A DNA stretch of 39,384 nucleotides from Melioribacteraceae bacterium (GTDB taxonomy: Bacteria; Bacteroidota; Ignavibacteria; Ignavibacteriales; Melioribacteraceae): positions 1 through 39,384 of the forward strand of contig WGCV01000014.1 in the NCBI GenBank assembly GCA_015493615.1. The letters are read 5' to 3'. The position numbers were made by a program, and so were the translations under genes. The notes beneath the pieces were generated by a model. That model searched no databases, was not told the origin of the DNA, and saw only the letters and a list, made by a program, of their open reading frames with translations. Below are positions 3,770-39,018 of this stretch, one piece after another; position 1 is the stretch's first letter, and every line of letters begins with the position of its first letter.

Positions 3770-5092
3770 TCATTTTTTTAGTTCATAGAAGCTTCCTGCT
3801 CCATGTTTTCCACTGGATATTAAAATGTTTTTTTTCAATAATTCTGATAAATCATTACTGGCTGTATTTCGTGAACAATTATTCAATATTTGATATTCTT
3901 TATTTGATATTTTTCCTTTTTCTTTTACGTACAAAACTGCTTTTATCTGTCTTTCGTTAAGTTTAAGATTTTCCAAATCTCTTTTATTAAAAATATCCTT
4001 TTTGAAAGTTATCCAAAAATCACTGCCATCGTTCTTGAATTCAGGGATTGGTAGTCCATGTTTTTGACATTGTTCCACAATTTTTATAGTTCCACGTCCC
4101 CAAGCTTCAATATAACCAGCTCGAAAAAATGCATTTGCAATATCAGGATTACGCGGTTTTGATGAATGCTTTTGTAATAATTTTTCGACTGTCCAATTTT
4201 CAGGAAGCCTTCCTTCATTCCAAATCATTAATTTATCATTGTAAACACTTATTTGAACTGGGAATCCATACGCATAATCCTTATGAACAATGGCATTTAG
4301 CAATGCTTCCCGAATTGCTTCTTTCGGGTATTCGTAATTTTCAATTCGGTGAATACCGTCATAAGAAATTATTGCTTTAATGTATTTGGTAAAAAGAATT
4401 TCGGTTGTTTTTTCAACTTGCTCAAATAAATTTCCGTGAACTTCATCTTGAAAAATCAATTCTGTATCTGTTTGAAAATAACCGATTTTAATAAATGCTC
4501 CTGTTACAAAATTTTCGGGGTCGGGATGAAAAAGCAGTACCGCAGCTCTTTTGAATACAGATTTTTCTAATAATTTTAAATTTTCAAGAACATTTTCGTC
4601 GTTTTCATTTAAAACATTTTCATCAATTCTTTTGTTTTTAACCGCTAATTTTTTGAATAAATCGAGTGTTTCGTTTTTTAGTTCCGTTATTGTAATTATG
4701 GGAATTGGCACACTATCCCAAGTTCTACTTTTCTTTTCAAGTAAGAATTTATCTAACGCAACACCTTTTAATTCTTGCCGTGTGCTACCGCTCCTGTAAA
4801 AATATTGTCCTTTATAATTAACGGCAAAAGGTTGTGGTTCAATAACAATTTCAAGATAATCACCCTTTCTGGTTTTATGTAAATTTACGTCAACTAAAAT
4901 CCCAAGAACGTCTTTTACTTTGTTTGGAATATCTTCAAGAAGTTTTTTTGAGTTTTTAACTCCAACAACTTCTCCTTTGTCATTTTTCCCAATAATAATC
5001 TTTCCGCCCGATGCATTAGCAAAGCCGCAAATCCATTTCAGATATTCATCTTTCCAAGTTTCCTTCCATTCAACATTTTGACTTTCTTGCAT
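3770..5092 (-). CDS. AlbA_2-domain / ATPase-like putative transcriptional regulator
   Basis: The 440-residue protein has the layout of the 'divergent AAA / AlbA_2' regulator family, often annotated as RecG-like. An N-terminal AlbA_2 nucleic-acid-binding domain is seen at about residues 5-110, with VEWKETW, GFANASGGKIIIG and VGVKNSKKLLEDIPNK. A GHKL-type ATPase-like segment follows with REALLNAIVHKDY (about residue 260-275) and GRGTIKIVEQCQKHGLPIPEF (about 340-360). A C-terminal winged-helix-like region (about 380-440) contains LNERQIKAVLYVKEKGKISNKEY-type residues. Such genes are frequent in accessory regions and near defence or toxin loci. The cellular role is unknown. The start ATG at 5092 is preceded by an AAGAGAT purine stretch. 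Confidence 0.8.
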   Translation of the reverse strand: MQESQNVEWKETWKDEYLKWICGFANASGGKIIIGKNDKGEVVGVKNSKKLLEDIPNKVKDVLGILVDVNLHKTRKGDYLEIVIEPQPFAVNYKGQYFYRSGSTRQELKGVALDKFLLEKKSRTWDSVPIPIITITELKNETLDLFKKLAVKNKRIDENVLNENDENVLENLKLLEKSVFKRAAVLLFHPDPENFVTGAFIKIGYFQTDTELIFQDEVHGNLFEQVEKTTEILFTKYIKAIISYDGIHRIENYEYPKEAIREALLNAIVHKDYAYGFPVQISVYNDKLMIWNEGRLPENWTVEKLLQKHSSKPRNPDIANAFFRAGYIEAWGRGTIKIVEQCQKHGLPIPEFKNDGSDFWITFKKDIFNKRDLENLKLNERQIKAVLYVKEKGKISNKEYQILNNCSRNTASNDLSELLKKNILISSGKHGAGSFYELKK

Positions 5093-5265: not shown

Positions 5266-6135
5266 TTAATTACTCACTTTTACCGGAGTGAGTTTCTCAC
5301 CGCTTCTGAATATTACAAATATTAAGATAGCTCCGTAGATTATCTGTCGCATATTGGCTGCAACATTGTTAGGCATGCCAAGAAAACGTAATGCTTCTGG
5401 AAGCAATACAAGAAACGCAGCGGCTCCGGCAATCTTCCACATATTTCTCATTCCGCCAATTATTACTATACTTAGAATAAATATAGACTCATTTATTGTG
5501 AAACTTGTCGGGTCTATGTAACTAATATAATGTGCGTATAAAACTCCCGGAATAGCCGCAAACATAGCGCTTATTGTAAACGAAATAATCTTTGCTTTGT
5601 AAACATTTTTCCCAAGACTTTGAGTGAATATCTCATCCTCGCTTAATGCAATTAAAACTCTTCCGAAAGGCGAACGGCTGATATTGTGCAACAGAAACCA
5701 AACAATAACAACAAAAAAAAGACTGAGAAATAAAAAGGAAACTTTATCATTAAACTGAAAACCGAAAATCTCTAATGCCGGAATTCCGGGTATGCCAAGC
5801 GGACCTCGTGTAAGTGATTGCCAATTATTCATAATAGAAAAAACTACAACTTGAATTCCGAGAGTAATAATTATAAAATAATCGTCAACCGTTCTAAGTG
5901 AAATTGTTGAAACAATAATTGCCGTAATACCGCATAAAAGCATTGCCAAGGGAAGTGTAATAAGAAACGGCAGTCCGTAATTTACCGATAACAAAGCGGT
6001 TGTGTAAGCTCCTATTCCGTAAAATCCGGCGTGGGCAAGTGAAATTAATCCTGAATAGCCCGCTGCTAAACTCAAACTTTGAGCAAGTAAAATGTAGATT
6101 AAAATAAATATGATTAAATGTAAAATATATTCCAA
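5266..6135 (-). CDS. livM: Branched-chain amino acid-type ABC permease LivM
   Basis: The 289-residue, highly hydrophobic protein has about eight to nine membrane segments. The family hallmark is visible near the N terminus, YSGLISLAHAGFYGIGAYTTALL (about residues 28-50), with the cytoplasmic EAA-like loop around SPFGRVLIALSEDEIFTQSLGKNVYKAK (about 165-190). In the Liv/HAAT family LivM pairs with LivH to form the inner-membrane pore, driven by LivG and LivF. It is on the short side for LivM and lacks the N-terminal extension seen in E. coli. It is the last gene of the long transporter operon, 30 nt after the DUF1016 nuclease gene. The true substrate is not established and may be a peptide or other amide. 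Confidence 0.9.
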   Translation of the reverse strand: MEYILHLIIFILIYILLAQSLSLAAGYSGLISLAHAGFYGIGAYTTALLSVNYGLPFLITLPLAMLLCGITAIIVSTISLRTVDDYFIIITLGIQVVVFSIMNNWQSLTRGPLGIPGIPALEIFGFQFNDKVSFLFLSLFFVVIVWFLLHNISRSPFGRVLIALSEDEIFTQSLGKNVYKAKIISFTISAMFAAIPGVLYAHYISYIDPTSFTINESIFILSIVIIGGMRNMWKIAGAAAFLVLLPEALRFLGMPNNVAANMRQIIYGAILIFVIFRSGEKLTPVKVSN

Positions 6136-6165
6136 GACACGAATTCCACTAATTTACACGAATGA

Positions 6166-7212
6166 TTAAAGATACTTTTTTAATAAATTTTTCAATTCTT
6201 CTTTGTTGGGTAAATACAATTGATACTCTTTTGCAAATATTTGATTGTTATCTTCGGGTAGCGTGTATTCAATAACAAAATCGTCTTTTTCTTTGCAGAG
6301 TAAAATACCGATAGTCGGATTTTCTTCTTCCAATTTTATTTCTCTATCGTAATAATTTATATACATTTGCATTTGTCCGATATCGCCGTGTGTAATTTTA
6401 CCTATTTTCAAATCGAACAAGACAAAACATTTTAATAAACGATTATAAAATACCAAATCAATGCGTAAATGTTCTGTTCCGGAAGTAAATCTCTGCTGCC
6501 GTGCAACAAATGAAAATCCTTTACCAAGTTCTAAAAGAAATTTTTCCAAATTGTTTATTATTGCGGTTTCCAAATCGCTTTCGGAATATTTAAAAGATTC
6601 TTCAAGTCCGAGAAACTCTAAAACATAAGGGTCTTTTAGGGCATCGTTTATATTTTCTATAATTTGCCCTTTTTCCGATAGTGATTTAACTCCCTTTTTA
6701 TCCTTGCTTAACAGCAACCGTTCAAACAGCGAACTATTTATTTGACGGTCGAGTTCACGAACAGACCAATTGTTTTCTGCTGTTTCTATTAGATAAAAAT
6801 TACGCTCATCTTCATTTTTTACACTTAGCAATCTTACAAAATGTGACCACGATAATTGTGCAACCACTGATTGCACTTTTGATAGTTTTGAGTTTGCAGA
6901 CACTGTCTGCAAAATTGGGAAAAGGCTATAAAATTGTTTCATATTGTATAAATTACGCCAGGAATAGCCCTTACCAAGAGATTTTGTCAAATCTACAGCC
7001 AACCTTTTTAATAATACAGTCCCGTATTCTGCCTTTTGTTCACCGCCTTGTTCGTACTCAACAATATATCGTCCAATATGCCAATAGGTAATTACAATGG
7101 TATGGTTTACTTCCCGAACAATTTTTGAACGAGAATCTTTTAATAAAGTTTCTATTGCAGAAACCAAGCCATTGTATTTTTTTTCCGAAATATCTTTCAT
7201 ATTATTTTTCAC
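6166..7212 (-). CDS. DUF1016 / YhcG-type PD-(D/E)xK nuclease
   Basis: The 348-residue protein matches the YhcG/DUF1016 family. An N-terminal DUF1016_N helical region is seen at about residues 10-165 with ITYWHIGRYIVEYEQGG and LSWSHFVRLLSVKNEDERNFY. A C-terminal nuclease fold follows with DPYVLEFLGL (about 195) and the catalytic-type core RIDLVFYNRLLKCFVLFDLKIGK (about residues 250-272), giving a D...DxK motif. Family members are nucleases of poorly known role, often in mobile or defence contexts. This one interrupts livH and livM with gaps of 46 and 30 nt, on the same strand. The first codon is GTG at 7212; an in-frame ATG at 7200 (MKDISEKK) is an equally plausible start. It looks like an insertion into the transporter operon. 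Confidence 0.88.
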   Translation of the reverse strand: MKNNMKDISEKKYNGLVSAIETLLKDSRSKIVREVNHTIVITYWHIGRYIVEYEQGGEQKAEYGTVLLKRLAVDLTKSLGKGYSWRNLYNMKQFYSLFPILQTVSANSKLSKVQSVVAQLSWSHFVRLLSVKNEDERNFYLIETAENNWSVRELDRQINSSLFERLLLSKDKKGVKSLSEKGQIIENINDALKDPYVLEFLGLEESFKYSESDLETAIINNLEKFLLELGKGFSFVARQQRFTSGTEHLRIDLVFYNRLLKCFVLFDLKIGKITHGDIGQMQMYINYYDREIKLEEENPTIGILLCKEKDDFVIEYTLPEDNNQIFAKEYQLYLPNKEELKNLLKKYL

Positions 7213-7258
7213 ACTGCTTAAATTAAAGCGCTAAATACTGATAACTCAAAACTAATAA

Positions 7259-8131
7259 CTAAATATCTATTTTTTTTAGTCTTTTACCGCTAAACCCAAG
7301 CGGTTTCCAGATTAGGAACAAAATTAAAATTATGTAAGCCGTTGCGTCCATCCATTTGCTGTCTATGTAGTAAGCCGAAAGATGCTGTGCGGTTGCAAGC
7401 AGCAGCGCTCCGCCGATTAACCCACTGTAGTTGCCGACTCCGCCTATTATCATTGCAACAACTGCATAAAGAAAAATATGAAATCCCATTGTCGGCGTCA
7501 TATCGGTATCCAAGGCAATTAAAATACCGGCAATTGCGGCAAGAGCAGAGCCGATAATAAAACTCCATAAAATAACTCTGTCCGAGCTGATACCGAAAAT
7601 ATTACTTAGCTCCGAGTTTGAAGAAACAGCTCTTATCTGTTTGCCGAGAGATGTATATTGTAAAAATAAAATTGTTGCAATAAATAAAACTATGCTAACA
7701 ACAATTGTAATAATCTGAACATTTGTAATGTAAGCACCCCAAATTTCGTTGCCGACTTTAACCGGCCAAGTGCGAATGCTTTTTGTGTCGTCTCCCCAAA
7801 TTAACGAGACTAAGTTTTGCAATATTACATACAGCCCCAAAGAAGCAATTAACATATTCCAAGAAGACGTTTCTATTTTACGTAATGGTTTATAGATGCT
7901 TAGTTCTGTAATTACACTAATTAAAACAGCCCCAATTATTGCCAAGGGAATTGCGAACCAAAAGCTAAACCCAAGTTGAATTGAAAAGAGAAGAGTTAAA
8001 TATGCACCGAGGGTTATTGTTATTGCGTGGGCAAAATGAAAAAATTTTACTGATTGGTAAATAATAGAAAAAGAAATTATTAAAAGAGAATAGATGGAAA
8101 AAGAAAGAAAAATGTTTATAATGAATTGCAT
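7259..8131 (-). CDS. livH: Branched-chain amino acid-type ABC permease LivH
   Basis: The 290-residue integral membrane protein has the LivH signature near its N terminus, SVKFFHFAHAITITLGAYLTLLF (about residues 27-49). The cytoplasmic EAA-like loop TSLGKQIRAVSSNSELSNIFGI is at about 165-187, and a closing region reads VVAMIIGGVGNYSGLIGGALLL (about 225-247). Eight or so hydrophobic spans are present. It should form the heterodimeric translocation pore with LivM. Its ATG lies 12 nt after the stop codon of the upstream single-TM protein gene, which ties the radical SAM block to the transporter. Length is normal for the family. Confidence 0.92.
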   Translation of the reverse strand: MQFIINIFLSFSIYSLLIISFSIIYQSVKFFHFAHAITITLGAYLTLLFSIQLGFSFWFAIPLAIIGAVLISVITELSIYKPLRKIETSSWNMLIASLGLYVILQNLVSLIWGDDTKSIRTWPVKVGNEIWGAYITNVQIITIVVSIVLFIATILFLQYTSLGKQIRAVSSNSELSNIFGISSDRVILWSFIIGSALAAIAGILIALDTDMTPTMGFHIFLYAVVAMIIGGVGNYSGLIGGALLLATAQHLSAYYIDSKWMDATAYIILILFLIWKPLGFSGKRLKKIDI

Positions 8132-8143
8132 TTTAACAACAAA

Positions 8144-8806
8144 TTACTTTTTATAAAACTTTGAATTTGATTTTAATACACCAGGAGCAAGGCTATCAAA
8201 ATTAGTTTTGTTATTATCAAAAGACTTTGAAATTCGATGTGATTTTTTGTTTACATCAACAAAGTCAAATTTCGATATATTTGAATCTAATACATCAAGG
8301 CTTTTTTTGATTTCATTATTTATCTCCAAATTTTTAATTAATAACACTTTAATATTTTCGAGATCGTTTTCTATTTTAATATTTGGGTTTTGACCCAAAA
8401 AAGACTGTATTGTAGGCAAGAACACGGAAATTAAAACACTTAACAAAATAGAGAAAATTAATAGCAAAAAATCACGATGAACAGAAGATTTGTCTATTTT
8501 TTGGTTTAACAAAAAAGAAGCCTTAGATAATTTGGGATTTAAATGGCTAATAAAAATATCACAGTTAGAAAACAATGTATTAGCAGATTCTAGGTCTTTT
8601 CCCTTTTTCTTACCTTTTAATTCATGAGCCTCACCTTGAATGAATACATAATCATTAATTAATTTAATAATTTTATCAATATATTCTCGCAACTCTTTCT
8701 GGGATAAATTTTCCAATGTAGTTTCAATAATGTCATAATACGGAGCTTTTAATGAGACAAACTTTTTATTTAATTCTACTTCTGTCATTTCAATTACCGC
8801 TTTCAT
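8144..8806 (-). CDS. Unrecognised single-TM protein with coiled-coil tail
   Basis: I do not recognise the family. The 220-residue protein has a charged helical N-terminal part (about 1-110) containing HELKGKKKGKD and CDIFISHLNPKLSKASF. One strong hydrophobic span follows, LLLIFSILLSVLISVFLP (about 114-132). The rest is a Lys/Asn-rich helical region with heptad-like spacing (IENDLENIKVLLIKNLEINNEIKK) and a basic end. Three starts are possible: TTG at 8812, ATG at 8806 (used here) and ATG at 8788, which follows the upstream stop as TGAAATG. In all cases the gene overlaps or abuts the 383-residue gene. Translation coupling with the radical SAM block and the 12-nt gap to livH suggest a job at the membrane in that system; this is inference. 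Confidence 0.75.
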   Translation of the reverse strand: MKAVIEMTEVELNKKFVSLKAPYYDIIETTLENLSQKELREYIDKIIKLINDYVFIQGEAHELKGKKKGKDLESANTLFSNCDIFISHLNPKLSKASFLLNQKIDKSSVHRDFLLLIFSILLSVLISVFLPTIQSFLGQNPNIKIENDLENIKVLLIKNLEINNEIKKSLDVLDSNISKFDFVDVNKKSHRISKSFDNNKTNFDSLAPGVLKSNSKFYKK

Positions 8807-9941
8807 AATCAACCGTTGATTTTTCTTCAGTTTGCAGCTTAGAGAATAAAGGTGTCTGATTTTTTGTCTCTTGCAATATATATGTTATGTCACTGTTTAA
8901 TAATTCATATTTATCATCTCCTTGAGTAATTACTTCCATTTTTACAATATTCTTTACTATATCCATATATGTATTTAAAATTATTGTTTTAACATCCGTA
9001 TTCTGGGTAATTTTAATTATTCCAAGATTCGGGCTGAATTCATCAGATAAGCTTAAATTTTTAACAAAATGTTTTTGATATTGATTGCCAAATAGTTTAA
9101 CGCTATTCTTATTATTCTTCCCAATAATAAATAATCTTGAACTTTCCTGACTATGTAACTTATTTAAGTAATACTTTAATACTGTTTGATCGGTATTTTT
9201 ATCCTCAATTTGACTAAAATTATAAAAATATTCATTTGAATTTACTAGTTTAGTTAAGATGTTGTTCAATTCTTCATTTTTTAGACCGTTTACGTTGGAA
9301 GAAATATCAGTATCAAAGAATAATTTTAATGTCTTTTTGTCAACTCCTGAAGAATATTCATTTATTCTGTTGAATGTAGACTTATTATACAAATCAGCCC
9401 AATGGATTTGTTGTTTATTATCTATGGAATATTTATCATCCTTTCTAAAATCATTTAATGAGAAAAGTCGAGTATTTCTAAAATACATTTCTTTGTCGGC
9501 AATAAAAGTAACTCGCGTTAATTTGATACCATTCCCTTGAATTAGGTTTTCAATCCTTTCTCTATATGTTTCAAGAAATTTTGGGCATCTTGAAAAATAA
9601 TAATTGTGCGACGACGAATTATTGTTTGTCCTTTTCTCACGTAAGTGCTTAATTATTGGGAAATTCCAAAAATGTCTTGGTAGGAGAGTTGAAAAAAAGA
9701 TGATTTCTAATTTAGTATTACTTAAGGAATCGATTAATTGTTCCATTAAATCCGGGTAAAATGATATAGTTGATAGAAACTTTTGGTCATCAATAGCACT
9801 ACTTTCAAGATTGTAATAACTATTTGCCAATGATTTCCAAAATTGTGGATGACTTTTTTCAATTTTGTCATTCCATTTTTCAATAACTTTTTGTAAGATT
9901 TGCAGTTCCGTGCTTGCTTTTGTACTCATATTCATTTTCAT
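8790..9941 (-). CDS. Unrecognised 383-aa protein linked to the radical SAM enzyme
   Basis: The family is not recognised. The protein is soluble-looking, 383 residues, with no signal peptide or membrane span. The N-terminal ~75 residues are helical (ELQILQKVIEKWNDK). A segment with LEIIFFSTLLPRHFWNFPIIKHLREKR near 79-103 and YYFSRCPKFLETYRERIENLIQGNGIKLTRVTFIADKEMYF near 113-155 might be an alpha/beta core. Its ATG overlaps the radical SAM stop codon by four bases (ATGA), which strongly implies coupled translation and a shared function. Codon usage is very AT-rich, like the genes on either side. It could be a partner subunit, a substrate-recognition protein or a tailoring enzyme; the sequence alone does not decide. 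Confidence 0.8.
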   Translation of the reverse strand: MKMNMSTKASTELQILQKVIEKWNDKIEKSHPQFWKSLANSYYNLESSAIDDQKFLSTISFYPDLMEQLIDSLSNTKLEIIFFSTLLPRHFWNFPIIKHLREKRTNNNSSSHNYYFSRCPKFLETYRERIENLIQGNGIKLTRVTFIADKEMYFRNTRLFSLNDFRKDDKYSIDNKQQIHWADLYNKSTFNRINEYSSGVDKKTLKLFFDTDISSNVNGLKNEELNNILTKLVNSNEYFYNFSQIEDKNTDQTVLKYYLNKLHSQESSRLFIIGKNNKNSVKLFGNQYQKHFVKNLSLSDEFSPNLGIIKITQNTDVKTIILNTYMDIVKNIVKMEVITQGDDKYELLNSDITYILQETKNQTPLFSKLQTEEKSTVDYESGN

Positions 9942-11533
9942 GCATTTATTACCAAATAAGTGTTTATATGAAATATCGGATTTTTATCTTCAATAAAATA
10001 TCTATTACTTTGTATTAAAGTATTTGTTTTAGGCAAAGAATTATCCAAATATATATTAAAATTATTTAAATCATTCTCCTTAAAAATTGGCTTTACATAA
10101 TCAGTTATCGATAATGAATTAATGTATTTTCTATTATTTTGAATAAATTCAAAAGTTTTCTTCTGTTCAAAAACATCTTCGTTTTCATAATTTAGCATAA
10201 AATAGCAATGAGTAAAAATATTGTTTCGTGATAAAAGACGAAGAATTTTATTATTATTCTTTATACTTAGTCCTTTATTCATTGCATCTAATGTTTTCTG
10301 GCTTCCCGATTCAATTCCAATCATTGCTAATTTCATTCCACCGTTATATAAAGTTTCTGCAAATTTATTATCAATATAAGGTTCAAGTCTCAACATAGCA
10401 GACCAATATATTTTAATATTTTCTTTTATAAGCAAATTTGAAAGTATTTTTAGTAATTTAGGCGAAGGAGCTGAACTGACGAAAGAAAAGTAATTAGTAT
10501 TGTACTTTGCAGAAAGAAATTTAATCTCCTTTAACAAACTATTTGAAGTTTTTTGAAAATATTGTTTGCCGGCAATTTCACAAAATTTACATTTACCCCA
10601 GTAACAACCTTTAGAAACTTCAATAGGAATTATAAATTTAGGAGTAAAGTACTTATCTAATTCCAGCCCGTCAAAATCCGGATAAACATTGTTAGAATAC
10701 TTTGATATTGATTCTTTATTGTTTATATGTGTTTTATTTGATTTGTCTTTCCAAATTAAATTTGGAACATTATCAAATATATTATTATTTTTATCAAAAA
10801 ATGTTTTAAATAGTATTTTAATTGATTCTTCAGTTTCACCGATAAGTATAAAATCATATAACTCATCAAAAAAATTATTTTTTACAAACTTTTCATAAAT
10901 TCTTGAGATGTAATCACCACCTAAAAGTATTTTTGTTGGAGGTGAGTATTGTTTTATTATTTTCGCAAATGATAATGCTGGGATAAGTTGTTCCGGTATC
11001 GTAATTGAAATTCCAAATATATCAGGAATGATTTCTAATAAATAATCAAGCTCATACTTCTCGAAATAATATTTGAATAGATTATTACTATCGTCAATGT
11101 ACTTTATAATGGTGTTTGGATTGAAGTGATTAAAATTGTATTCAATATATCCTAAACTTATATTGAGATCATTATAATTTAATTGGTATGTTTTTAATAT
11201 TAAGTCAATATCCTCAAATGTTTCTTTTAGAGCGATTTTATTTTTGTAAAAAGAAAGGTCCCTTAATTGGGATTTCATTAAAAAGACATTATTGATAAAG
11301 TAATCTTTTAAGGTATAAAGGGATTTCTCTTTTTCACTGAGAGAATTCTGTGTAATAGAGCTAAATTGGGTCACTAATTCTTTTTCACTCAATAAATTGT
11401 CAAAAAAAGATAGATTTATATCTCTTTGATAAACTCTATATCCTTCATTTCGTAATATCCCTGTCAGTAACGGAATACTTAAATAAGGTTGGTTCGGGTA
11501 CCATGGAGGAACGCTAGCTAAAATAGTTTTCAT
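9938..11533 (-). CDS. B12-binding-type radical SAM enzyme
   Basis: The 531-residue protein has the two-domain layout of cobalamin-binding-type radical SAM enzymes. The N-terminal ~1-290 region opens ASVPPWYPNQPYLSIPLLTGIL and later shows DIFGISITIPEQL and KILLGGDYIS, typical of the Rossmann-like B12-binding fold. I do not see the DxHxxG base-off motif, so cobalamin may be bound base-on or not at all. The radical SAM core carries Cys310, Cys315 and Cys318 in KGCYWGKCKFCEI, the Cx4Cx2C variant common in this subgroup. MIGIESGSQKTLDAMNKG lies at about 404-421. Such enzymes methylate or otherwise modify unactivated carbons, often in peptides. The gene starts 6 nt after a 54-codon ORF and overlaps the next gene by 4 nt. 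The substrate is unknown. Confidence 0.88.
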   Translation of the reverse strand: MKTILASVPPWYPNQPYLSIPLLTGILRNEGYRVYQRDINLSFFDNLLSEKELVTQFSSITQNSLSEKEKSLYTLKDYFINNVFLMKSQLRDLSFYKNKIALKETFEDIDLILKTYQLNYNDLNISLGYIEYNFNHFNPNTIIKYIDDSNNLFKYYFEKYELDYLLEIIPDIFGISITIPEQLIPALSFAKIIKQYSPPTKILLGGDYISRIYEKFVKNNFFDELYDFILIGETEESIKILFKTFFDKNNNIFDNVPNLIWKDKSNKTHINNKESISKYSNNVYPDFDGLELDKYFTPKFIIPIEVSKGCYWGKCKFCEIAGKQYFQKTSNSLLKEIKFLSAKYNTNYFSFVSSAPSPKLLKILSNLLIKENIKIYWSAMLRLEPYIDNKFAETLYNGGMKLAMIGIESGSQKTLDAMNKGLSIKNNNKILRLLSRNNIFTHCYFMLNYENEDVFEQKKTFEFIQNNRKYINSLSITDYVKPIFKENDLNNFNIYLDNSLPKTNTLIQSNRYFIEDKNPIFHINTYLVINA

Positions 11534-11539
11534 AATGAT

Positions 11540-11704
11540 TTATTTAACAATTTTTGACAGCAATAAACCTTTTCTGCAACTAATGAAGAAATTTCCAATA
11601 TTAGTTGTAGAACTAATACCCCAAATTTTTTTCGCTTCTTTTTTCAGGTGTTGTTTCTTTTTGCTATCGGAATTTCTTTTTGAATGAATTTTAGTTCTCT
11701 TCAT
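11540..11704 (-). CDS. 54-codon Lys-rich peptide ORF, possible enzyme substrate
   Basis: ATG at 11704 runs to TAA at 11540-11542. The product is 54 residues: a very basic first half (MKRTKIHSKRNSDSKKK, then LKKEAKKIW) and a second half with GISSTTNIGNFFISC and GLLLSKIVK. It has one Trp, one Cys and several Ser/Thr/Asn. The ATG lies inside the last codons of livK, overlapping it by 14 nt, with AGG nine bases upstream. Its stop is 6 nt before the radical SAM start, so it fills the only gap in this part of the operon. A small peptide next to a radical SAM gene suggests a modified-peptide (RiPP-like) precursor. It could also be a chance ORF or a translational-coupling leader. No known precursor motif is seen. 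Confidence 0.45.
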   Translation of the reverse strand: MKRTKIHSKRNSDSKKKQHLKKEAKKIWGISSTTNIGNFFISCRKGLLLSKIVK

Positions 11705-12815
11705 ACTGTATAGCCTTATTATTTTTTATAATCATTATTTCTAGTTTTTTTATAACATCTCCATTCTTATCGAATTTAATATTTCCAGATACACCATTAT
11801 CATCTAATGAATAAAGATATTCCTTTGCCTTATCAGTATTGTTTCCATTTTCTCTTAAAGCATTTACAATTATGTCATATGAATCATATCCAAGTGCAGT
11901 TAATAGTGATGGTTCTTTTCCCTTTAATTTTTTATACTCATCTATAAAGCGATTAATCTTAGAAGTTCTTTTTGACAAGTCATAAAATGGGCGTGAATAT
12001 ATTATTCCATTAGCAGCATTTCCAAGTGTTTTTAAAATATCCGTATTATCAAAAGTAACAGGTGCAAAAATATCTGTATCAATATTTAATTCCCTAATTT
12101 GTTTAATGATATTTATATATTGCATATCAATTGCAATAATCAATAATCCGCTTGAATTAGATTGTTTTATTTTCAACAATTTTGTTCTAAAATCAGTATC
12201 TGCTGGTAAGAAGGACTCTGAAGTATTTATCTTTCCACCTAAAGCGATATATTTATTTACAAAAACATTTTTAAGACCTTGCCCAAAATCGTTGTTTAAG
12301 TATAGAATTGAAAAAGTTTTAATTTTTTTCTTTGTAAAAGCAAAATTAGCAAGAATTTTGCCATCGTATAAATCGGAAGGATAAATTCTAAAAATATAGT
12401 CTCCAGCACTGGTAAGTAACGGAGTAGATGCTGTTGATGATAACATTATTATTTTATTTTTTTCACAAATTGGAGCTACCGCTAATGCAATAGGAGATGC
12501 CGCTACACCTATAATAGCCTTTACTTTATCAATATCTATTAACTTAGAAGCCGCAGATATCCCTTGCTTTGGTTCAATTTTACTATCTTCAACTACAATT
12601 TTATATTTAATAATATTTTGTTCATCATCAATTTTCTTCGCTATATTAATACCATCTAATATATTTTTCCCAATTTCTGATGCGGGCCCTGACAGTGGTA
12701 AAATAACCCCAATATTGATTTCATTACTCTTCTTGAGTGTTCCTTGAGAAAAAAACAAATACCCAATCAAAATAATTACTAATAAAACTATTCCAATTAA
12801 AAATCCTTTTTTCAC
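11691..12815 (-). CDS. livK: Liv-type periplasmic binding protein (membrane-anchored)
   Basis: The 374-residue protein belongs to the Leu/Ile/Val-binding family (Peripla_BP_6). Seen: INIGVILPLSGPASEIGKNILDG (about residues 33-55), AIIGVAASPIALAVAPICEKNKIIMLSS (about 100-127), STASTPLLTSAGDYIFRIYPSD (about 127-148), and ALGYDSYDIIVNALRENG (about 318-335). These are ligand-cleft regions in LivJ/LivK. The N terminus has a hydrophobic span (FLIGIVLLVIILIGYLFF) but no lipobox Cys and no clear signal-peptidase site, so it is probably held by an uncleaved anchor. It overlaps livF by 4 nt upstream and the small peptide ORF by 14 nt downstream. Its coding is as AT-rich as the radical SAM block. The ligand may not be a branched-chain amino acid. 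Confidence 0.9.
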   Translation of the reverse strand: MKKGFLIGIVLLVIILIGYLFFSQGTLKKSNEINIGVILPLSGPASEIGKNILDGINIAKKIDDEQNIIKYKIVVEDSKIEPKQGISAASKLIDIDKVKAIIGVAASPIALAVAPICEKNKIIMLSSTASTPLLTSAGDYIFRIYPSDLYDGKILANFAFTKKKIKTFSILYLNNDFGQGLKNVFVNKYIALGGKINTSESFLPADTDFRTKLLKIKQSNSSGLLIIAIDMQYINIIKQIRELNIDTDIFAPVTFDNTDILKTLGNAANGIIYSRPFYDLSKRTSKINRFIDEYKKLKGKEPSLLTALGYDSYDIIVNALRENGNNTDKAKEYLYSLDDNGVSGNIKFDKNGDVIKKLEIMIIKNNKAIQYEEN

Positions 12816-13510
12816 ACCATCACCTCATTAGTTTGTTCAATGGTTAATAAATCTTCTTTATAAATTTTCCCAAGTTTTAAGCCTACAACTTTATCGGCAA
12901 TATCAAAAACATTTTTTACTCTGTGTTCAACAAGTAAAATAGAAATGCCGGTTTCTTTTAATTTTTTAATCTGCAAAATAATATCGTTTAAGTTTCTCGG
13001 ACTAACTCCCGCAAGCGGTTCATCAAAAATAATCAACTTTGGTTTATTAATCAATGCCATTGCAAGGCTTACTTGTTTACGCTCGCCGCCGCTGAGTTTG
13101 CCGCATTCTTGTTTACTTAAGTTTTTAAGTATTGGTAATTGCTCTAAAGTTTCTTCAATTCTGCTTTTTAATTCTTTCTTTTCTACGGTCTGCATTCCGG
13201 CAATTTCTATGTTTTCAATTACGGTTAGTTCTTCAAACAATTCGTTTTGCTGCGGTATGTAAACCATTCCTTTTTTAATTAGCTGCACCGGTTTGTTGTT
13301 TGTGATGTTCTCGTTATTAAAAATTATTTTTGCTTCTTTGTTCCAAGGTTTAAGCAATCCGTAAATAACTTTAAGCAATGTACTTTTTCCGCTTCCGTTG
13401 GAGCCTATTAACAGTAGGGTTTCTCCTTTATTCATTTCAAAAGAAACATCAAAGAGAACTTGTTTTTTGCCGTAACCGGCAGAGACTTTATTTACTTTTA
13501 AAAAACTCAA
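12812..13510 (-). CDS. livF: Liv-type ABC transporter ATPase LivF
   Basis: The 232-residue ATP-binding subunit has a Walker A motif GSNGSGKSTLLK (about residues 37-48), Q-loop region VYIPQQNELFEELTV (about 82-96), ABC signature LSGGERKQVSLAMAL (about 138-152), Walker B KLIIFDEPLAGVSP (about 156-170) and switch His in LLVEHRV (about 193-199). Family length and the FDEPLAG form fit LivF. It should dimerise with LivG under the LivH/LivM pore. It overlaps livG upstream by 4 nt (ATGA) and livK downstream by 4 nt, so the three are tightly coupled. Confidence 0.94.
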   Translation of the reverse strand: MSFLKVNKVSAGYGKKQVLFDVSFEMNKGETLLLIGSNGSGKSTLLKVIYGLLKPWNKEAKIIFNNENITNNKPVQLIKKGMVYIPQQNELFEELTVIENIEIAGMQTVEKKELKSRIEETLEQLPILKNLSKQECGKLSGGERKQVSLAMALINKPKLIIFDEPLAGVSPRNLNDIILQIKKLKETGISILLVEHRVKNVFDIADKVVGLKLGKIYKEDLLTIEQTNEVMV

Positions 13511-14250
13511 AGGTAAGCTTCCTGCACAAATGAATCATTCTTTAACTCTTGATAGTTATCAAACTCTGTAATTTTTCCGTTGGATAAGAAAAATATTTTA
13601 TCGCTAATAGAATTAATAAAATCCGCATTGTGTTCTATAAGTAAAATTGTTTTGCCTTTTGCCTTAATATCTGTCAACAGTGATGCAATTTTTTTTCGGT
13701 AGTCCGGGTTAATTCCGGCAACCGGCTCGTCCAACAAAAAAAGTTTCGCATTGTTTGCTAAGCAGCAGCCTAAAGTTAAAAGCTTTTGCTGTCCGTAAGA
13801 TATTTCACTTGCCATATTTCCTGCAACATCACTAAGAAATATTTGTTTAATAATTTGATCGGCATTTATATTAAACGAATTATAATAATCTTTTAACATA
13901 ACTTGCGGAAGTAAAGCGCTAAAAATACTTTCGCCTTTATTCCCTTTAAAAGAAAGGAGAATATTTTCTTTTACGGTTAATCCTTCTATCAATCTTAAAT
14001 TTTGAAAAGTTCTTGTAATTCCAAGCCGGTTAATTTTAATAGGTGTGCAATCAGTAATGTTTCTTTCGTTAAATAAAACGGTTCCGTTATCTGCTCGCAA
14101 GAAACCGGTTAAAATATTAAACAAAGTTGTCTTACCGGCTCCGTTAGCTCCCATTAGGGAATAGATTTGCCCGGAATTCAATTCAAGGTTTAATCCGGAA
14201 AGAATTTTTCTATCGCCGAAAGATTTATGTATGTTATTTAGTTTAAGCAA
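13507..14250 (-). CDS. livG: Liv-type ABC transporter ATPase LivG
   Basis: The 247-residue ATP-binding subunit has Walker A GANGAGKTTLFNILTG (about residues 34-49), Q-loop region GITRTFQNLRLIEGLTV (about 76-92), signature EISYGQQKLLTLG (about 147-159), Walker B LFLLDEPVAGI (about 167-177) and LLIEHNADF (about 200-208). The TRTFQNLRL and EPVAGI forms are typical of LivG. It is second in the operon, 12 nt after the 97-residue protein gene, and overlaps livF by 4 nt. It powers import together with LivF. Confidence 0.94.
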   Translation of the reverse strand: MLKLNNIHKSFGDRKILSGLNLELNSGQIYSLMGANGAGKTTLFNILTGFLRADNGTVLFNERNITDCTPIKINRLGITRTFQNLRLIEGLTVKENILLSFKGNKGESIFSALLPQVMLKDYYNSFNINADQIIKQIFLSDVAGNMASEISYGQQKLLTLGCCLANNAKLFLLDEPVAGINPDYRKKIASLLTDIKAKGKTILLIEHNADFINSISDKIFFLSNGKITEFDNYQELKNDSFVQEAYL

Positions 14251-14262
14251 AATAAAAATATT

Positions 14263-14556
14263 TTAATTGTATTTAAATTTAGTTAAAAGTGTTTGAAAAT
14301 GTTTCTTTAAATCCGTAAAATTTGGGAGCAGTCCATCTTGTAAATCCTCATTCTCTTCAATTTCTTCAAGTGGTAAACCAATATCAATTTCTTCATCTTC
14401 AAATTTTAGTAAAGATTTTACCGTTTCTTCGATTTTATCATCGGTTATTTTGTCTCCAAGTGTAAGATCTATTAATTCCCGTAACCATTGATACCGTTCA
14501 TTTTTATTAAATGAACAATGTTCTTTTATATAATCAATAGCGTTTTGTGTTTGCAT
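14263..14556 (-). CDS. Unrecognised 97-aa acidic protein, first gene of the liv operon
   Basis: The family is not recognised. The 97-residue protein is soluble and acidic, with an N-terminal helical part (NAIDYIKEHCSFNKNERYQWLREL) and a strongly acidic middle (EDEEIDIGLPLEEIEENEDLQDG). The ATG is preceded by a good ribosome site, AGAAAGGAAA directly upstream. It ends 12 nt before livG on the same strand, so it is very likely the promoter-proximal gene of the transporter/radical SAM operon. A regulatory or structural role cannot be told apart. Confidence 0.7.
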   Translation of the reverse strand: MQTQNAIDYIKEHCSFNKNERYQWLRELIDLTLGDKITDDKIEETVKSLLKFEDEEIDIGLPLEEIEENEDLQDGLLPNFTDLKKHFQTLLTKFKYN

Positions 14557-14572
14557 TTTCCTTTCTATGTTT

Positions 14573-14797
14573 TTATCGGGAATATATGTTAAACATAAGT
14601 TCGTATATTAGTTTTTTAATCTTGATAAATCTACTTTTGGGGTTCTTAATTGTTGCGGAATAAATATTGTGTTTTTGTTGAAATAGATCTGCCGTAAGCG
14701 AGAAAGGATTAAGTGATTTACTTTGATTTTTCACACTCGTCAGTGAGTGTTCTGTTTTGAAAAATTTTAATTCGGCGACGCCCATTAAAAACCTCAT
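14573..14797 (-). repeat. Dispersed repeat, shortened relative of 39090-39371
   Basis: The open frame MGVAELKFFKTEHS... here and MGNTFLKYSDTQNS... at 39090-39371 share spaced identities (MG, LK, T, S, VK, S, L). Both have an LNPxxLTAxxx segment (LNPFSLTADLF here, LNPLKLTAEMV there). This copy lacks a middle part of some 45 residues. At the DNA level both carry a hairpin: CACTC-GTCAGT-GAGTG here and CTCATCGATGAG there, which differ in sequence but keep pairing. I treat it as a repeat element rather than a gene. Confidence 0.5.
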
Positions 14798-15202
14798 ATT
14801 TGTGAAATAAATTAGAGAATTTTCATCGTTAAATCAAGCGGTTTCTGAGGAAATTTACTTTTTCCGGTTTGCCGTTAATCTGTCAGGGAATTGCGCTTGA
14901 AAGCGAAATGTTTGAACAAATACTGTAGTAAAAGATAATCTAGCGTTTGTTTTTCGCAGATTGCAAGCAATCTACGCTACAACACTGTCTTGCTTTTATC
15001 TTATCTTTTGCAAAAAGGTGAAAAATTTTGAATAGCTTAAATTCTCGATAGGAGATTCTTCGCTCCGCATTCTGCGGAACTCAGAATGACAACACGGAAT
15101 TGGATTTTATGTCTTGCGTTTTACCGTCTCACATAATAAAAAAAGCTGTCGAGAAAACAATCCCCGACAGCTTTGTAAACGATAATTTATTTAATTCTTC
15201 CG
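14798..15202. other. Intergenic space with repeat remnants
   Basis: No gene is seen. It holds an inverted copy (14949-14980) of the hairpin repeat at 602-633 (GTAGATTGCTTGCAATCT core). A fragment of the MITE right half (about 15045-15092, AGATTCTTCGCTCC...CAGAATGAC) follows, then a piece of the TTGCGTTTTACCGTCTC-type repeat near 15113-15131 and the icd terminator. Confidence 0.6.
15136..15174 (-). terminator. Intrinsic terminator of icd
   Basis: On the minus strand, AAAGCTGTCG pairs with CGACAGCTTT around a 12-nt loop and is followed by a T-rich run (TTTTTTTATT). It lies about 30 nt after the icd stop codon. Stem, loop and T tract all fit a Rho-independent terminator. Confidence 0.85.
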
Positions 15203-17488
<2,286 letters not shown>

Positions 17489-17780: not shown

Positions 17781-18095
17781 ATGAACTTATCGCCAAACGA
17801 AAAAGAAAACATTAAAAAAAAGATTGTTGAGAAGTTAAGCCACCGTAAGGAAATCGATAAAATAATTATTTTCGGATCCTTTGTAAACTCGGAAAATCCT
17901 AAAGATATTGATTTGGCAATTTTTCAGAATAGCAATGAAACGTATTTAAGTTTATCCTTGAAGTACAGGAAAGCAATAAGAGAAATTTCCAAAAGCATTC
18001 CAGTAGATGTTTTCCCAATTATTTCACAAAGGTCAAATGATTTTGTGTTAAATGAAATTGAAAGCGGCGAGGTAATTTATGAAAGAGGAAACTAA
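17781..18095 (+). CDS. MNT-type minimal nucleotidyltransferase
   Basis: The 104-residue protein is a minimal nucleotidyltransferase. The hallmark GSFVNSENPKDIDLAIF (about residues 33-49) carries the GS...DxD signature of the polymerase-beta fold, and a later IPVDVFPI supplies the third acidic position. In MNT/HEPN pairs the MNT protein acts as an antitoxin, often by AMPylating or otherwise modifying the HEPN partner. The start ATG at 17781 gives a frame that opens directly into a charged helix. Its 3' end overlaps the HEPN gene by 17 nt. The pair lies between 83-bp direct repeats and is on the opposite strand from its neighbours, which suggests acquisition as a unit. Confidence 0.82.
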   Translation: MNLSPNEKENIKKKIVEKLSHRKEIDKIIIFGSFVNSENPKDIDLAIFQNSNETYLSLSLKYRKAIREISKSIPVDVFPIISQRSNDFVLNEIESGEVIYERGN

Positions 18096-18471
18096 GATAT
18101 GGCTAAAGTACGCTAAAGAAAATCTTGAAGCGGCAAAAGTTTTATCGGACAATGAACTGTTTAACCCTGCGTTGCAAAACATCCAACAATCTATTGAGAA
18201 ATCACTTAAATCTTTAATTATTGAATTTGCAATCGGATTGAAAAAATCGCATAGTATTTTAGAACTAAAAAATATTTTAGATACAAACCATATTAAAATA
18301 GAACTGACAGACGACGAAATTGATTTGCTCGATAGTATCTATTTGCCTTCCAAATACCCTATCGGAAGTGCATTGCCGAATTTTTATCCCGATAAAGAAA
18401 TTACGAACGCGTGCCTCGATATCGCCAGGAGAGTTTTAGAATCGGTAGAATTAATGTTATTGAAAAAATAA
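18079..18471 (+). CDS. HEPN-domain protein, probable toxin partner
   Basis: The 130-residue all-helical protein fits the HEPN domain. The helix WLKYAKENLEAAKVLSDNE is followed by ALQNIQQSIEKSLKSLI, then KKSHSILELKNIL, then the family segment YLPSKYPIGSALPNFYPDKEITNACLDIARRVLESV. HEPN toxins of this kind are typically RNases. I do not find the canonical Rx4-6H catalytic motif, so the protein may be inactive, or use another site, or be a substrate-binding form. It overlaps the MNT gene by 17 nt (ATG inside the last codons), a normal arrangement for this two-gene module. Confidence 0.82.
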   Translation: MKEETKIWLKYAKENLEAAKVLSDNELFNPALQNIQQSIEKSLKSLIIEFAIGLKKSHSILELKNILDTNHIKIELTDDEIDLLDSIYLPSKYPIGSALPNFYPDKEITNACLDIARRVLESVELMLLKK

Positions 18472-34697: not shown

Positions 34698-35093
34698 TTA
34701 TTTACTATATACTTTTAGATTTAGAAATTTATTAAATGGATCAAAGTCTCTATCATTATGTAATAATGTAAATTGGTTTTGAATGCAAAAGGTTGCAATC
34801 ATAGTGTCAATTGTTTTTCTGACGGTAATCCCTTTTTTCCTTAAAAAGCGATAATTCTTAGCGCTTTGAATAGCTATTTCCTTTCCTCCAATATCAAAGC
34901 ATGGAAATGAAAGAAGAATTGTTTTTGCTTTCCGGAATTCGGTATCACTTCTAAATCCTTGTAAGACTTCAGTTAAAACATAATCCCCAATAACTACAAG
35001 TTCTTTCCCAAGTATTGAGTCTAAAACTTCAACTTGCCAATTATTCTTTCCATTAAAATAATCAATAAGTACAGTGGAGTCTAAAAAGATCAT
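34698..35093 (-). CDS. vapC: VapC-type PIN-domain toxin
   Basis: The 131-residue PIN-domain ribonuclease has acidic active-site residues in place: Asp5 (MIFLDSTVLIDYF), Glu42 (LTEVLQGF), Asp96 (TIDTMIA) and Asp114/116 (HNDRDFD). VapC toxins cut tRNA or rRNA at specific sites. The ATG overlaps the vapB stop by one base (TAATG), the normal coupled arrangement. Length is normal. The stop codon lies 7 nt before the core of attC-like site A, so the pair behaves as a cassette. Toxin-antitoxin cassettes with their own promoter are common in large integrons and help keep arrays stable. Confidence 0.93.
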   Translation of the reverse strand: MIFLDSTVLIDYFNGKNNWQVEVLDSILGKELVVIGDYVLTEVLQGFRSDTEFRKAKTILLSFPCFDIGGKEIAIQSAKNYRFLRKKGITVRKTIDTMIATFCIQNQFTLLHNDRDFDPFNKFLNLKVYSK

Positions 35094-37830: not shown

Positions 37831-39018
37831 TCACAAAATAGTATTAGCTATCGTTTTCCAATCTATATTTTCAATATAATTTTGTATTGTTAGCAGTCTA
37901 TTTTCTTTCTTCCAAGTCTCCCAATTTCTAGAGATTGCACCACGTGCTGAAACTTTTAAGTTGTACAGGTCAGGGTGGATAACTAGTATTCTATTCTGCG
38001 GATTTCCAACCATCCATTCTATCAATCGTGTATTTATTCCTTTGTCTCCGAAACTATAACCACAAATTATTAATGAATCCAAACTGTTATTAAGCACTTC
38101 ATAAAATTGCCTATGCAGTGTATTCCAAATGCCGTAATTGTATTGTAACATTTTATTAAATGTGCCGGCAAGGAACATTGGTCTTCCATCAATAGGATAT
38201 TGTAAATCGCCCTTCGGATTTTTTGTGTGCCAAAAGTCCCACTCTAATGGGATGCCAATTTGAACGGTTTTGGGATTATCTTCAGCATTAAACCGAAACC
38301 AATTAACTGAACCGTGAAGCTTAATGAGAGATAATTTATCCTTAGACGAATTGAATAAATTATAATTCCAATATCGCACATTATTAACTGGTTCATTAAA
38401 CCCATCTTGAATAGGAATAGAATTGGAGGAAAAGAATTGTTCTAACAGTGTATCGTGATTTAAGGTGAATATATAAATATTCTCAAATGTTTCTTGTTTA
38501 TAACACTCGCTAAGAAAAGATAAATAAGTCATATCTTTTACATCTTTATTTAATGCGTGCCAAACAATATCAACAATATAATTCATTGCCTCGCTTGACA
38601 ATTCAAGTAAATTCCAAGTACTTTTAATTTCCGAACTGCGTTGATCAAATAATGATTTTATGTCAGGCATTATTTTGTCAATAAATGTTTGGACTATAGG
38701 ATTGTCATAATTAAAAGTTTCGCTGTCATATATTTGATTGCAGATGTAATACAAATCCTCATAATTTGTGGCTCTATCTGGAAACGGGAAATAGTATAAA
38801 TCACTCTCAACTTTAACGCGATTAAGAAATATTAATACTCTACTGAGATATTCCTCTGGAAAGCCAGTGTGCGCCATTGGACTTTTGCCAAAATAATAAT
38901 TCCCATCAGTATGACGAAAAATATTTTTACCCGTAATAACAGTTTCAGTGACACTGCTAGTTGATGGATAGCCAGCCTTCAAAGAAATCCCAGAACCAAA
39001 TAAAAATCCAATCTTCAT
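37831..39018 (-). CDS. SIR2-like domain protein, possible defence effector
   Basis: The 395-residue protein carries the bacterial SIR2-like fold (SIR2_2 type). It has the glycine-rich NAD loop FGSGISLKAGYPST (about residues 7-20), FTLNHDTLLEQ with Asn187 and Asp189, KLHGSVNW with His235 (position of the catalytic His), and LIICGYSFGDKGIN near 337-350. Proteins of this kind, often acting as NADases, are effectors of anti-phage systems (for example DSR and Thoeris families). This one has no second effector or sensor domain and no adjacent partner gene, so it may work alone or not in defence. It is the most upstream cassette seen, with GTTATAT 14 nt before the ATG and an attC-like site 6 nt after the stop. 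Confidence 0.82.
   Translation of the reverse strand: MKIGFLFGSGISLKAGYPSTSSVTETVITGKNIFRHTDGNYYFGKSPMAHTGFPEEYLSRVLIFLNRVKVESDLYYFPFPDRATNYEDLYYICNQIYDSETFNYDNPIVQTFIDKIMPDIKSLFDQRSSEIKSTWNLLELSSEAMNYIVDIVWHALNKDVKDMTYLSFLSECYKQETFENIYIFTLNHDTLLEQFFSSNSIPIQDGFNEPVNNVRYWNYNLFNSSKDKLSLIKLHGSVNWFRFNAEDNPKTVQIGIPLEWDFWHTKNPKGDLQYPIDGRPMFLAGTFNKMLQYNYGIWNTLHRQFYEVLNNSLDSLIICGYSFGDKGINTRLIEWMVGNPQNRILVIHPDLYNLKVSARGAISRNWETWKKENRLLTIQNYIENIDWKTIANTIL

Follow-up and report, generated by a model that had tools for sequence, protein, structure and literature searches.

The operon described here encodes a Liv-type ATP-binding cassette (ABC) importer in a Melioribacteraceae bacterium and carries genes of other kinds between its transporter genes. 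It lies in a stretch of 39,384 nucleotides (the window; GenBank assembly GCA_015493615.1, contig WGCV01000014.1, positions 1 to 39,384), part of contig 14 of a 3.15 Mb genome, where eleven same-strand open reading frames (ORFs) occupy the minus strand from 14556 to 5266, all as listed in a preliminary description of the sequence. After orf97 come livG (13507-14250), livF (12812-13510) and livK (11691-12815), followed by a 54-codon ORF (orf54, 11540-11704), a B12-type radical S-adenosylmethionine (SAM) gene (9938-11533), orf383 (8790-9941), a gene for a protein with one transmembrane (TM) segment (TM222, 8144-8812), livH (7259-8131), a DUF1016/YhcG nuclease-family gene (6166-7212) and livM (5266-6135). 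The importer is complete according to Pfam and NCBIfam: LivG and LivF are ABC_tran ATPases (LivG nearest to UrtD/LivG in NCBIfam), LivK is a Peripla_BP_6 binding protein whose nearest solved chain is 3td9, and LivH and LivM are BPD_transp_2 permeases. The family assignments of the preliminary description stand for these five, for the DUF1016 gene (YhcG_C) and for the radical SAM gene (Radical_SAM; nearest solved chain OxsB), in which the B12-binding domain scores under the Pfam cut-off and NCBIfam B12-type radical SAM models match; orf383, orf54 and TM222 have no family above cut-off in Pfam or NCBIfam, nor does orf97, which was compared with NCBIfam only.

The genes are tightly packed. Three four-base overlaps had been read as ATGA throughout; all three exist, and the sequence is ATGA between the radical SAM gene and orf383, TTGA between livG and livF (TTG start of livF) and GTGA between livF and livK (GTG start of livK). 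The small orf54 shares 14 bases with the end of livK and stops 6 bases ahead of the radical SAM start, and the DUF1016 gene is separated from livH by 46 bases and from livM by 30. The GC content of livK through the TM gene is 25-28% against 33-36% in livG, livF, livH and livM, as the earlier remark on a very AT-rich block had it; orf97 is likewise AT-rich (27.6%).

A scan of genome contigs with the window radical SAM protein yielded 19 loci, and among the neighbourhoods listed from it Liv genes occur only in Bacteroides faecichinchillae JCM 17102 (locus L033). There, livG-livF-livK-58-codon ORF-radical SAM-orf383 homologue-TM-livH-livM follow one another in the order of the window, and the DUF1016 gene is not in the operon. 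The two radical SAM proteins are 41% identical, the similarity of the orf383 proteins is reached by none of 1000 shuffles, and orf54 and its counterpart orf58, alike in place and size, score 57 against 26.1 ± 5.0 for shuffled sequences (0 of 2000). Such synteny disfavours simple coincidence, and to this extent the arrangement is more than chance, as had been supposed. The search for the gene set in other genomes gave one further, partial case in the same family, G048, where a radical SAM gene stands beside livK with a 61-codon ORF upstream of it and livH, livM, livG and livF are present. The livK-radical SAM-small ORF arrangement is common to G048 and the window by position only, the radical SAM proteins also by sequence (27-30% identity by two methods). 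Neither orf61 nor orf291 of G048 is demonstrably related to orf54 or orf383; orf291 looked like orf383 by eye, and was dropped as a homologue in view of absent hhalign support and a score reached by 145 of 1000 shuffles. The expectation that binding proteins from such operons form a clade of their own is borne out for the window and L033 (support 100/99) and fails for the G048 LivK, which falls outside.

The gene set is rare and scattered, as is expected of horizontally moved genes. Only two of 349 genomes in the family of B. faecichinchillae pass E 1e-45, namely the query genome itself (877 bits) and one other (156 bits), and in a sample of 395 genomes from the phylum of the window just two, the window genome and G048, exceed 800 bits (both are rows of the profile used), the next best match reaching 249. 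An rpoB tree places the window genome in Bacteroidota, outside the branch of Bacteroides and Polaribacter, with G048 as its sister (100/100). Viral contigs hold no relatives of orf383 or of the radical SAM protein, and plasmids no orf383 match at E <= 1; 25 plasmid records match the radical SAM protein, all below 60% identity, and Liv genes are present in none of the five radical SAM plasmid contexts read. Plasmid LivM matches reach at most about 42% identity among the 25 of 96 records listed. One of the plasmid stretches (Desulfocapsa NC_020305.1, 4297-10559; L089) has genes for glutathione synthase, C45 peptidase and oxidoreductase next to a radical SAM gene and looks like a small biosynthetic cluster.

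The Liv operon of the window is accessory. Two genomes of the same genus (G001, G003) have no LivM of the group described below, and in another relative, G004, the protein adjoining the block (window 15203-17425, by eye an isocitrate dehydrogenase) is 99% identical, the DNA match ends at window base 15074 and what by eye is a radA-like gene takes the place of the operon. This accessory nature, together with the fact that other genes are clearly inserted in operons of this kind, would suit an accidental neighbourhood, with unrelated genes lodged in a Liv operon. Accident is made less plausible by the recurrence of this gene order in a different class of the phylum, by the association of cargo with LivK and by the repeated breakpoints described below, and we regard it as highly improbable.

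Following LivK through 164 genomes of the order (match at E <= 1e-20 in 13) led to Liv operons with quite different cargo. A LivM profile of six rows (A3), against which the window LivM, one of those rows, scores 461 bits, recovered 23 of 391 genomes of the class at E <= 1e-60 and 11 of 257 genomes of the phylum sample at E <= 1e-55, six of the latter already known. In G298 (193 bits) the Liv operon has a different gene order and carries no cargo, and this genome was excluded from the group. In total 32 loci were read, of which 24 show livK with neighbouring cargo (window, L033, L090, L128-L132, L143, L145, L147, L149, L150, L152, L153, L155, L156, L159, L160 and L164-L168); L128, L130 and L132 belong to the group by LivK alone. 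Two places bear two names each (L133/L159 and L134/L160), and some loci were run as L133 and L135. A further six regions, taken from the phylum to which a Desulfobacterales genome belongs, were read and are excluded from all counts.

Within this group the binding protein has parted company with its permease. The 18 loci in which LivK and LivM are both complete form 153 pairs; their median LivK identity is 29.8% where LivM identity is 35-45% (47 pairs), 31.0% where it is 65-75% (22 pairs) and 27.9% where it is 75-90% (8 pairs), with single LivK pairs reaching 59%. The other 14 of the 32 loci were left out, as LivK is missing, broken or cut (L142, L144, L146, L148, L149, L151, L154, L157, L158), LivM was not picked by the ORF filter (L164) or the stretch holds no full LivM or LivK (L128, L130, L131, L132). 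Eight ordinary Liv operons of the same order, a narrower sample in that all come from one family, have median identities of 78% for LivK and 74% for LivM (28 pairs), and all eight are contiguous livK-H-M-G-F with no gene in between. The window LivM is 60-73% identical to the LivMs of its subgroup, and its LivK is 59% identical to that of L033 and at most 37% to other LivKs of the group. Its nearest LivM is that of L147 (73%), yet L147 has unrelated cargo and a LivK of 35% identity; with L033 the values are 60% for LivM and 59% for LivK.

The limits of the replaced unit are best seen in three close relatives. L165 and L166 are two copies of the same importer in one genome (G333), 86-89% identical in DNA and carrying unrelated cargo, and this pair is a natural swap experiment. 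Their DNA matches at 89% up to base 632 of the 702-base livF and again at 86% over a second stretch that starts at about base 210 of livH and extends almost to the end of livM, without any match between the two blocks. The breaks fall at livF base 607 and livH base 224 for L165-L167, and at livF base 533 and livH base about 212 for L166-L167, so that across the three pairs they span livF bases 533-632 and livH bases 208-224. Protein identity changes in step: by thirds, LivF drops through 97/87/66, 94/83/53 and 94/84/53, and LivH climbs through 49/90/96, 40/90/96 and 41/91/94. In these loci the breaks define the replaced unit as the 3' part of livF through the 5' part of livH. The preliminary description had drawn its AT-rich block from livK to the TM gene; the relatives with the clearest breaks place the borders within livF and livH, which makes LivK and the N-terminus of LivH part of the block. 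The relatives of the window itself are too distant to show more than a gradient by thirds, with livF at 54/38/30 against L033, 62/42/35 against L147 and 53/43/33 against L152, livH at 36/44/62 against L147, and a livH GC of 29.6 in the 5' third and 42.6 in the 3' third. By analogy with L165-L167, the 3' third of livF and the 5' third of livH would belong to the replaced unit in the window too.

Composition follows the same division. GC in the livF-livH interval is below that of livG, livF and livM in all eleven loci whose genes stand in this order, the mean difference being 8.2 points, and in the window the two parts stand at 26.4 and 33.9; this deficit is the AT-rich block noticed from the sequence at the outset. 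There is very little doubt that LivH, LivM, LivG and LivF form a conserved chassis and that LivK with its neighbours is an exchangeable cassette.

The cargo of a cassette (here, the genes inside the liv span together with as many as five nearby genes of the same strand to either side) goes with LivK and not with LivM. With 16 ORFs of toxin-antitoxin type or DUF5131/TcmP-like neighbours excluded by hand beforehand, the rank correlation (Spearman) of best cargo similarity with LivK identity over the 18 loci is 0.281, a value reached in 13 of 5000 label permutations, against 0.011 (2250 of 5000) for LivM; holding LivM constant leaves it at 0.281 (13 of 5000). All four pairs with LivK identity of at least 45% have cargo in common, and none of the nine pairs with LivM identity of at least 75% does. 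The LivK tree groups the window with L033 (see above), L145 with L165 (100/97) and L150, L155, L159 and L168 with one another (98/94), and three of the last four have the same SPASM radical SAM protein (52-63%). In the LivM tree L165 sits in a clade (100/100) without L145, and the placement of the window relative to L033 has weak support (82/91). Numerous branches are open in either tree, and the agreement of the trees with the link between cargo and LivK is partial. Cargo type follows LivK type, and both are replaced together. The earlier proposal that the AT-rich genes came in as one block finds support in this pattern of LivK-cargo association, breaks and GC.

A different kind of gene is found lodged in the chassis. 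Toxin-antitoxin or nuclease-type genes stand between or directly before chassis genes in 10 of the 32 loci (the window with DUF1016, L090, L129, L131, L142, L143, L144, L148, L154 and L158), three of the 32 showing no permease gene in the stretch fetched, and in none of the eight ordinary operons. Examples run in Pfam belong to 23S_rRNA_IVP, NTP_transf_2, AbiEii, ParE, HicB/HicA and PDDEXK_3; an AbiEi insert scores just under cut-off, the remaining inserts were assigned by homology, and a 136-codon partner in L090 has no Pfam match. Other inserts occur in L145 and L168. Some inserts recur between loci with similar chassis, as in L129 and L143, whose AbiE proteins are 73-75% identical alongside 80% for LivM and 27% for LivK. 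The DUF1016 protein of the window matches the PADLOC candidate PDC-S02. Since the gene is absent from L033, and since toxin-antitoxin-type genes occupy the same livH/livM junction in relatives, it is probably a separate insertion in the chassis, outside the cassette. No homologue of orf97 was noticed in the other Liv loci compared by BLAST or listed, although no search was aimed at it. Both genes were considered as parts of the system and rejected. The view that enzymes and transporter form one system is supported for the set that recurs in full in B. faecichinchillae and for cargo that tracks LivK, and not for DUF1016 and orf97.

The cargo itself is diverse. Family counts, which cover the part of the cargo proteins that was run, place a radical SAM protein (by Pfam or homology) in 13 of the 24 cassettes: window, L033, L090, L132 (radical SAM score just under cut-off, BATS domain above), L143, L145, L150, L152, L155, L159, L164, L165 and L168. 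Three cassettes encode a TIR domain above cut-off (L129, L143, L165), two a caspase (L129, L130) and one a SLATT protein (L143), making four cassettes of 24 with any of these. An EgtD-like methyltransferase occurs in L129 and L153 and a PALP enzyme in L156 and L160, and single cases are a class II tRNA synthetase core (L149), a polyprenyl synthase (L131), a metallo-beta-lactamase fold (L128) and a GGDEF domain (L167).

Several architectural variants were seen along the way. A second layout (L133/L159, L134/L160, L155 and L156) runs livH-M-G-F-K and is followed by radical SAM or PALP genes, by a gene for a protein about 1150-1410 residues long and by others, among them a response regulator in L133 and an asparaginase-like gene in L134; the two large proteins of this layout that were run in Pfam have no match. 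DUF5131 genes lie upstream of several cassettes (by Pfam in L128, as homologues or look-alikes in L131, L135 and L144, and as a fragment in L129), with a possible TcmP-type neighbour by eye in L128 and L135. In L149 a 348-codon ORF (13070-15277, minus strand) splits livK and by eye is probably a mobile element.

One way to account for such cargo is nutrient scavenging, in which the cassette would be an uptake-and-use module whose LivK captures some unusual nutrient, an amino acid or a peptide-like compound, for conversion by the enzymes; LivK and enzymes would then covary because of their common substrate. Liv importers are uptake systems, PALP, asparaginase-like, EgtD-like and tRNA synthetase-type proteins are enzymes of amino acid type, and no exporter is seen. 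On the other hand, nutrition would leave the TIR, caspase and SLATT proteins of 4 of 24 cassettes and the toxin-antitoxin-type insertions of 10 of 32 loci unaccounted for, and the rapid exchange and AT-rich composition of the cassettes would be unusual for it. On balance we think a nutritional role unlikely.

In the binding proteins, the residues of the pocket vary with the type of cassette. Where 3td9 and 4gnr have Asp, at a position that we take to be the holder of the amino group, 8 of 22 LivKs of the group also have Asp (L090, L143, L150, L155, L156, L159, L164 and L168); the window, L033 and three more have Val, and the remainder have different residues. This is a hint, and only a hint, that the ligand of the window LivK may be something other than a plain alpha-amino acid.

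The radical SAM protein of the window cassette, a candidate maturase, finds its best NCBIfam match in TIGR03975 (98.6 bits, under the cut-off of 281.85). The place of orf54 fits a precursor peptide, a role that we assign to it only tentatively; neither orf54 nor orf58 has an NCBIfam family at E <= 0.1, and no leader family was recognised. The orf383 protein, possibly a partner or sensor, matches nothing in Pfam, NCBIfam, PADLOC or the PDB, and an AlphaFold2 model from two sequences has a mean pLDDT of 32. TM222 has its one hydrophobic segment from about residue 109 and is a candidate response protein; in shuffle comparisons it is not similar to the TM protein of G048. Elsewhere in the group, the TIR protein of L165 carries its TIR domain at residues 6-127, and its residues 217-430 match a 273-residue TIR-less protein of L145 (27%, E 9e-13), the two loci being 55% identical in LivK and 49% in LivM; one shared region seems to have been combined with differing outputs.

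The presence of effector-type families in four of the 24 cassettes, a match of the L130 caspase protein to the PADLOC candidate PDC-S65 and the diversification of the sensor are what an outward-looking defence would lead one to expect, with LivK binding a phage or competitor molecule and the enzymes and TM, TIR or caspase proteins acting as activated effectors. In PADLOC, no family matches the window radical SAM protein, orf383 or TM222 at E <= 0.01, and the biosynthetic-type enzyme of most cassettes would be superfluous for sensing a foreign molecule; such a defence seems to us quite unlikely.

The explanation that we consider best, with rather less than full conviction and somewhat short of calling it probable, is that the operon is a chassis-plus-cassette Liv importer whose cassette serves as a lock-and-key signal, self-recognition or conflict system. 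The covariation of LivK, the LivH entrance and the enzyme suggests that one molecule is handled by all of them, and we judge it fairly likely that cassette enzyme and LivK deal with the same compound. The TIR, caspase, SLATT or TM proteins of the cassettes suggest a response rather than nutrition, and the two lines together favour a private signal. Upon the observed cassette architecture we place an inferred ligand, direction and response. The cassette enzymes would make a dedicated small molecule, in the window perhaps a compound derived from the orf54 peptide, on which the B12 radical SAM enzyme would act while orf383 served as its partner or as a sensor. This molecule would leave the cell and be captured by the matching LivK, LivHMGF would take it in, and a cassette protein would answer, perhaps TM222 in the window and TIR, caspase or SLATT proteins in some sister cassettes. 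Whether the enzyme makes the molecule rather than consumes it is evenly balanced in our estimation, and the TM, TIR or caspase protein may or may not, with equal weight on either side, constitute the response.

It is important to point out that several observations weigh against a private signal carried by such cassettes. Cargo is still common in 22 of 149 pairs with LivK below 45%, so that the link between LivK and cargo is not exclusive, and the permutation test ignores relatedness and is based on 18 loci. No exporter was seen in the cassettes, and 20 of the 24 are without a TIR, caspase or SLATT match above cut-off. The exchange of Asp for Val is not special to the group, as all eight ordinary LivKs have Ala at that position. 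In several cassettes with a radical SAM gene, no small ORF is seen between that gene and livK, orf61 of G048 is not similar to orf54 or orf58 (1816 and 388 of 2000 shuffles reach the scores), and the TM proteins of the window and L033 are not similar to each other (459 of 1000 shuffles).

Taken as a whole, the reading is of a scattered and apparently undescribed class of importer-coupled lock-and-key systems, in which a conserved Liv permease would be re-aimed by cassettes; each would comprise a private signal, often made by a radical SAM enzyme, its own LivK and LivH entrance and a membrane, TIR or caspase response, and would sometimes be guarded by toxin-antitoxin-type genes lodged in the chassis. 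We put it forward as a conjecture, somewhat less likely than not.

Each component has known counterparts. The operon shares with LivFGHMK/HAAT importers all five subunits, their domain families and the order within the ATPase and permease pairs, and differs in that the window proteins score under the NCBIfam equivalog cut-offs for LivM, LivH and urea transporters, LivK is decoupled from the permease, and cargo lies inside the operon in a cassette that is exchanged. In agr quorum-sensing groups and pyoverdine regions, a variable block with genes for the maker and the receiver of a single molecule lies between conserved flanks, with borders inside the flanking genes. The logic of the Liv cassettes is alike, with different parts: here an ABC importer and binding protein stand with radical SAM or other enzymes, and neither a receptor kinase nor siderophore synthesis was seen in the cassettes.

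Radical SAM clusters for ribosomally synthesised and post-translationally modified peptides (RiPPs) of the TIGR03975 type likewise pair a B12 radical SAM gene with a small ORF that lies immediately upstream, and the best NCBIfam match of the window enzyme is a RiPP maturation model; the match lies far under cut-off, and in the place of a recognised precursor family, protease and exporter the window has a Liv importer. One of the regions from the phylum of a Desulfobacterales genome (L183, 1710-10880) combines a Liv operon with a downstream B12 radical SAM gene, two methyltransferase-like genes and a peptidase-like gene, and a 64-codon ORF upstream has a weak NHLP clan match (E 5e-4, under cut-off); it looks like a RiPP-type cluster with its own importer.

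NTP-dependent conflict systems (Kaur and others 2020, PMC7159879) resemble some cassettes in their TIR and caspase components, and that article mentions a PBP domain in the variable region of one system; the window cassette has no TIR or caspase gene, and the text of the article does not contain the terms LivK, ABC transporter, solute-binding, substrate-binding or branched-chain. A link of Liv genes with TIR, caspase or radical SAM cassettes was not found in open-literature titles and visible abstracts. The components are known and the arrangement was not found described there; its functional reading is a proposal.

Liv operons are routinely annotated as amino-acid uptake systems, which would be misleading if a subset are modular recognition systems. 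If our reading is true, the cassettes would be a new source of modified peptides or amino acids, each pairing an enzyme with a possible binder of its product, and bacterial TIR and caspase proteins would gain a possible input from outside the cell. The pattern suggests that each version of the cassette handles a private chemical of its own.

Possible defence-type genes are also found near the operon, at window positions 3770-5092, 18079-18471, 34698-35093 and 37831-39018; one of the proteins matches pAgo-linked PADLOC models, and by eye HEPN-like, VapC-like and SIR2-like ORFs are among them.

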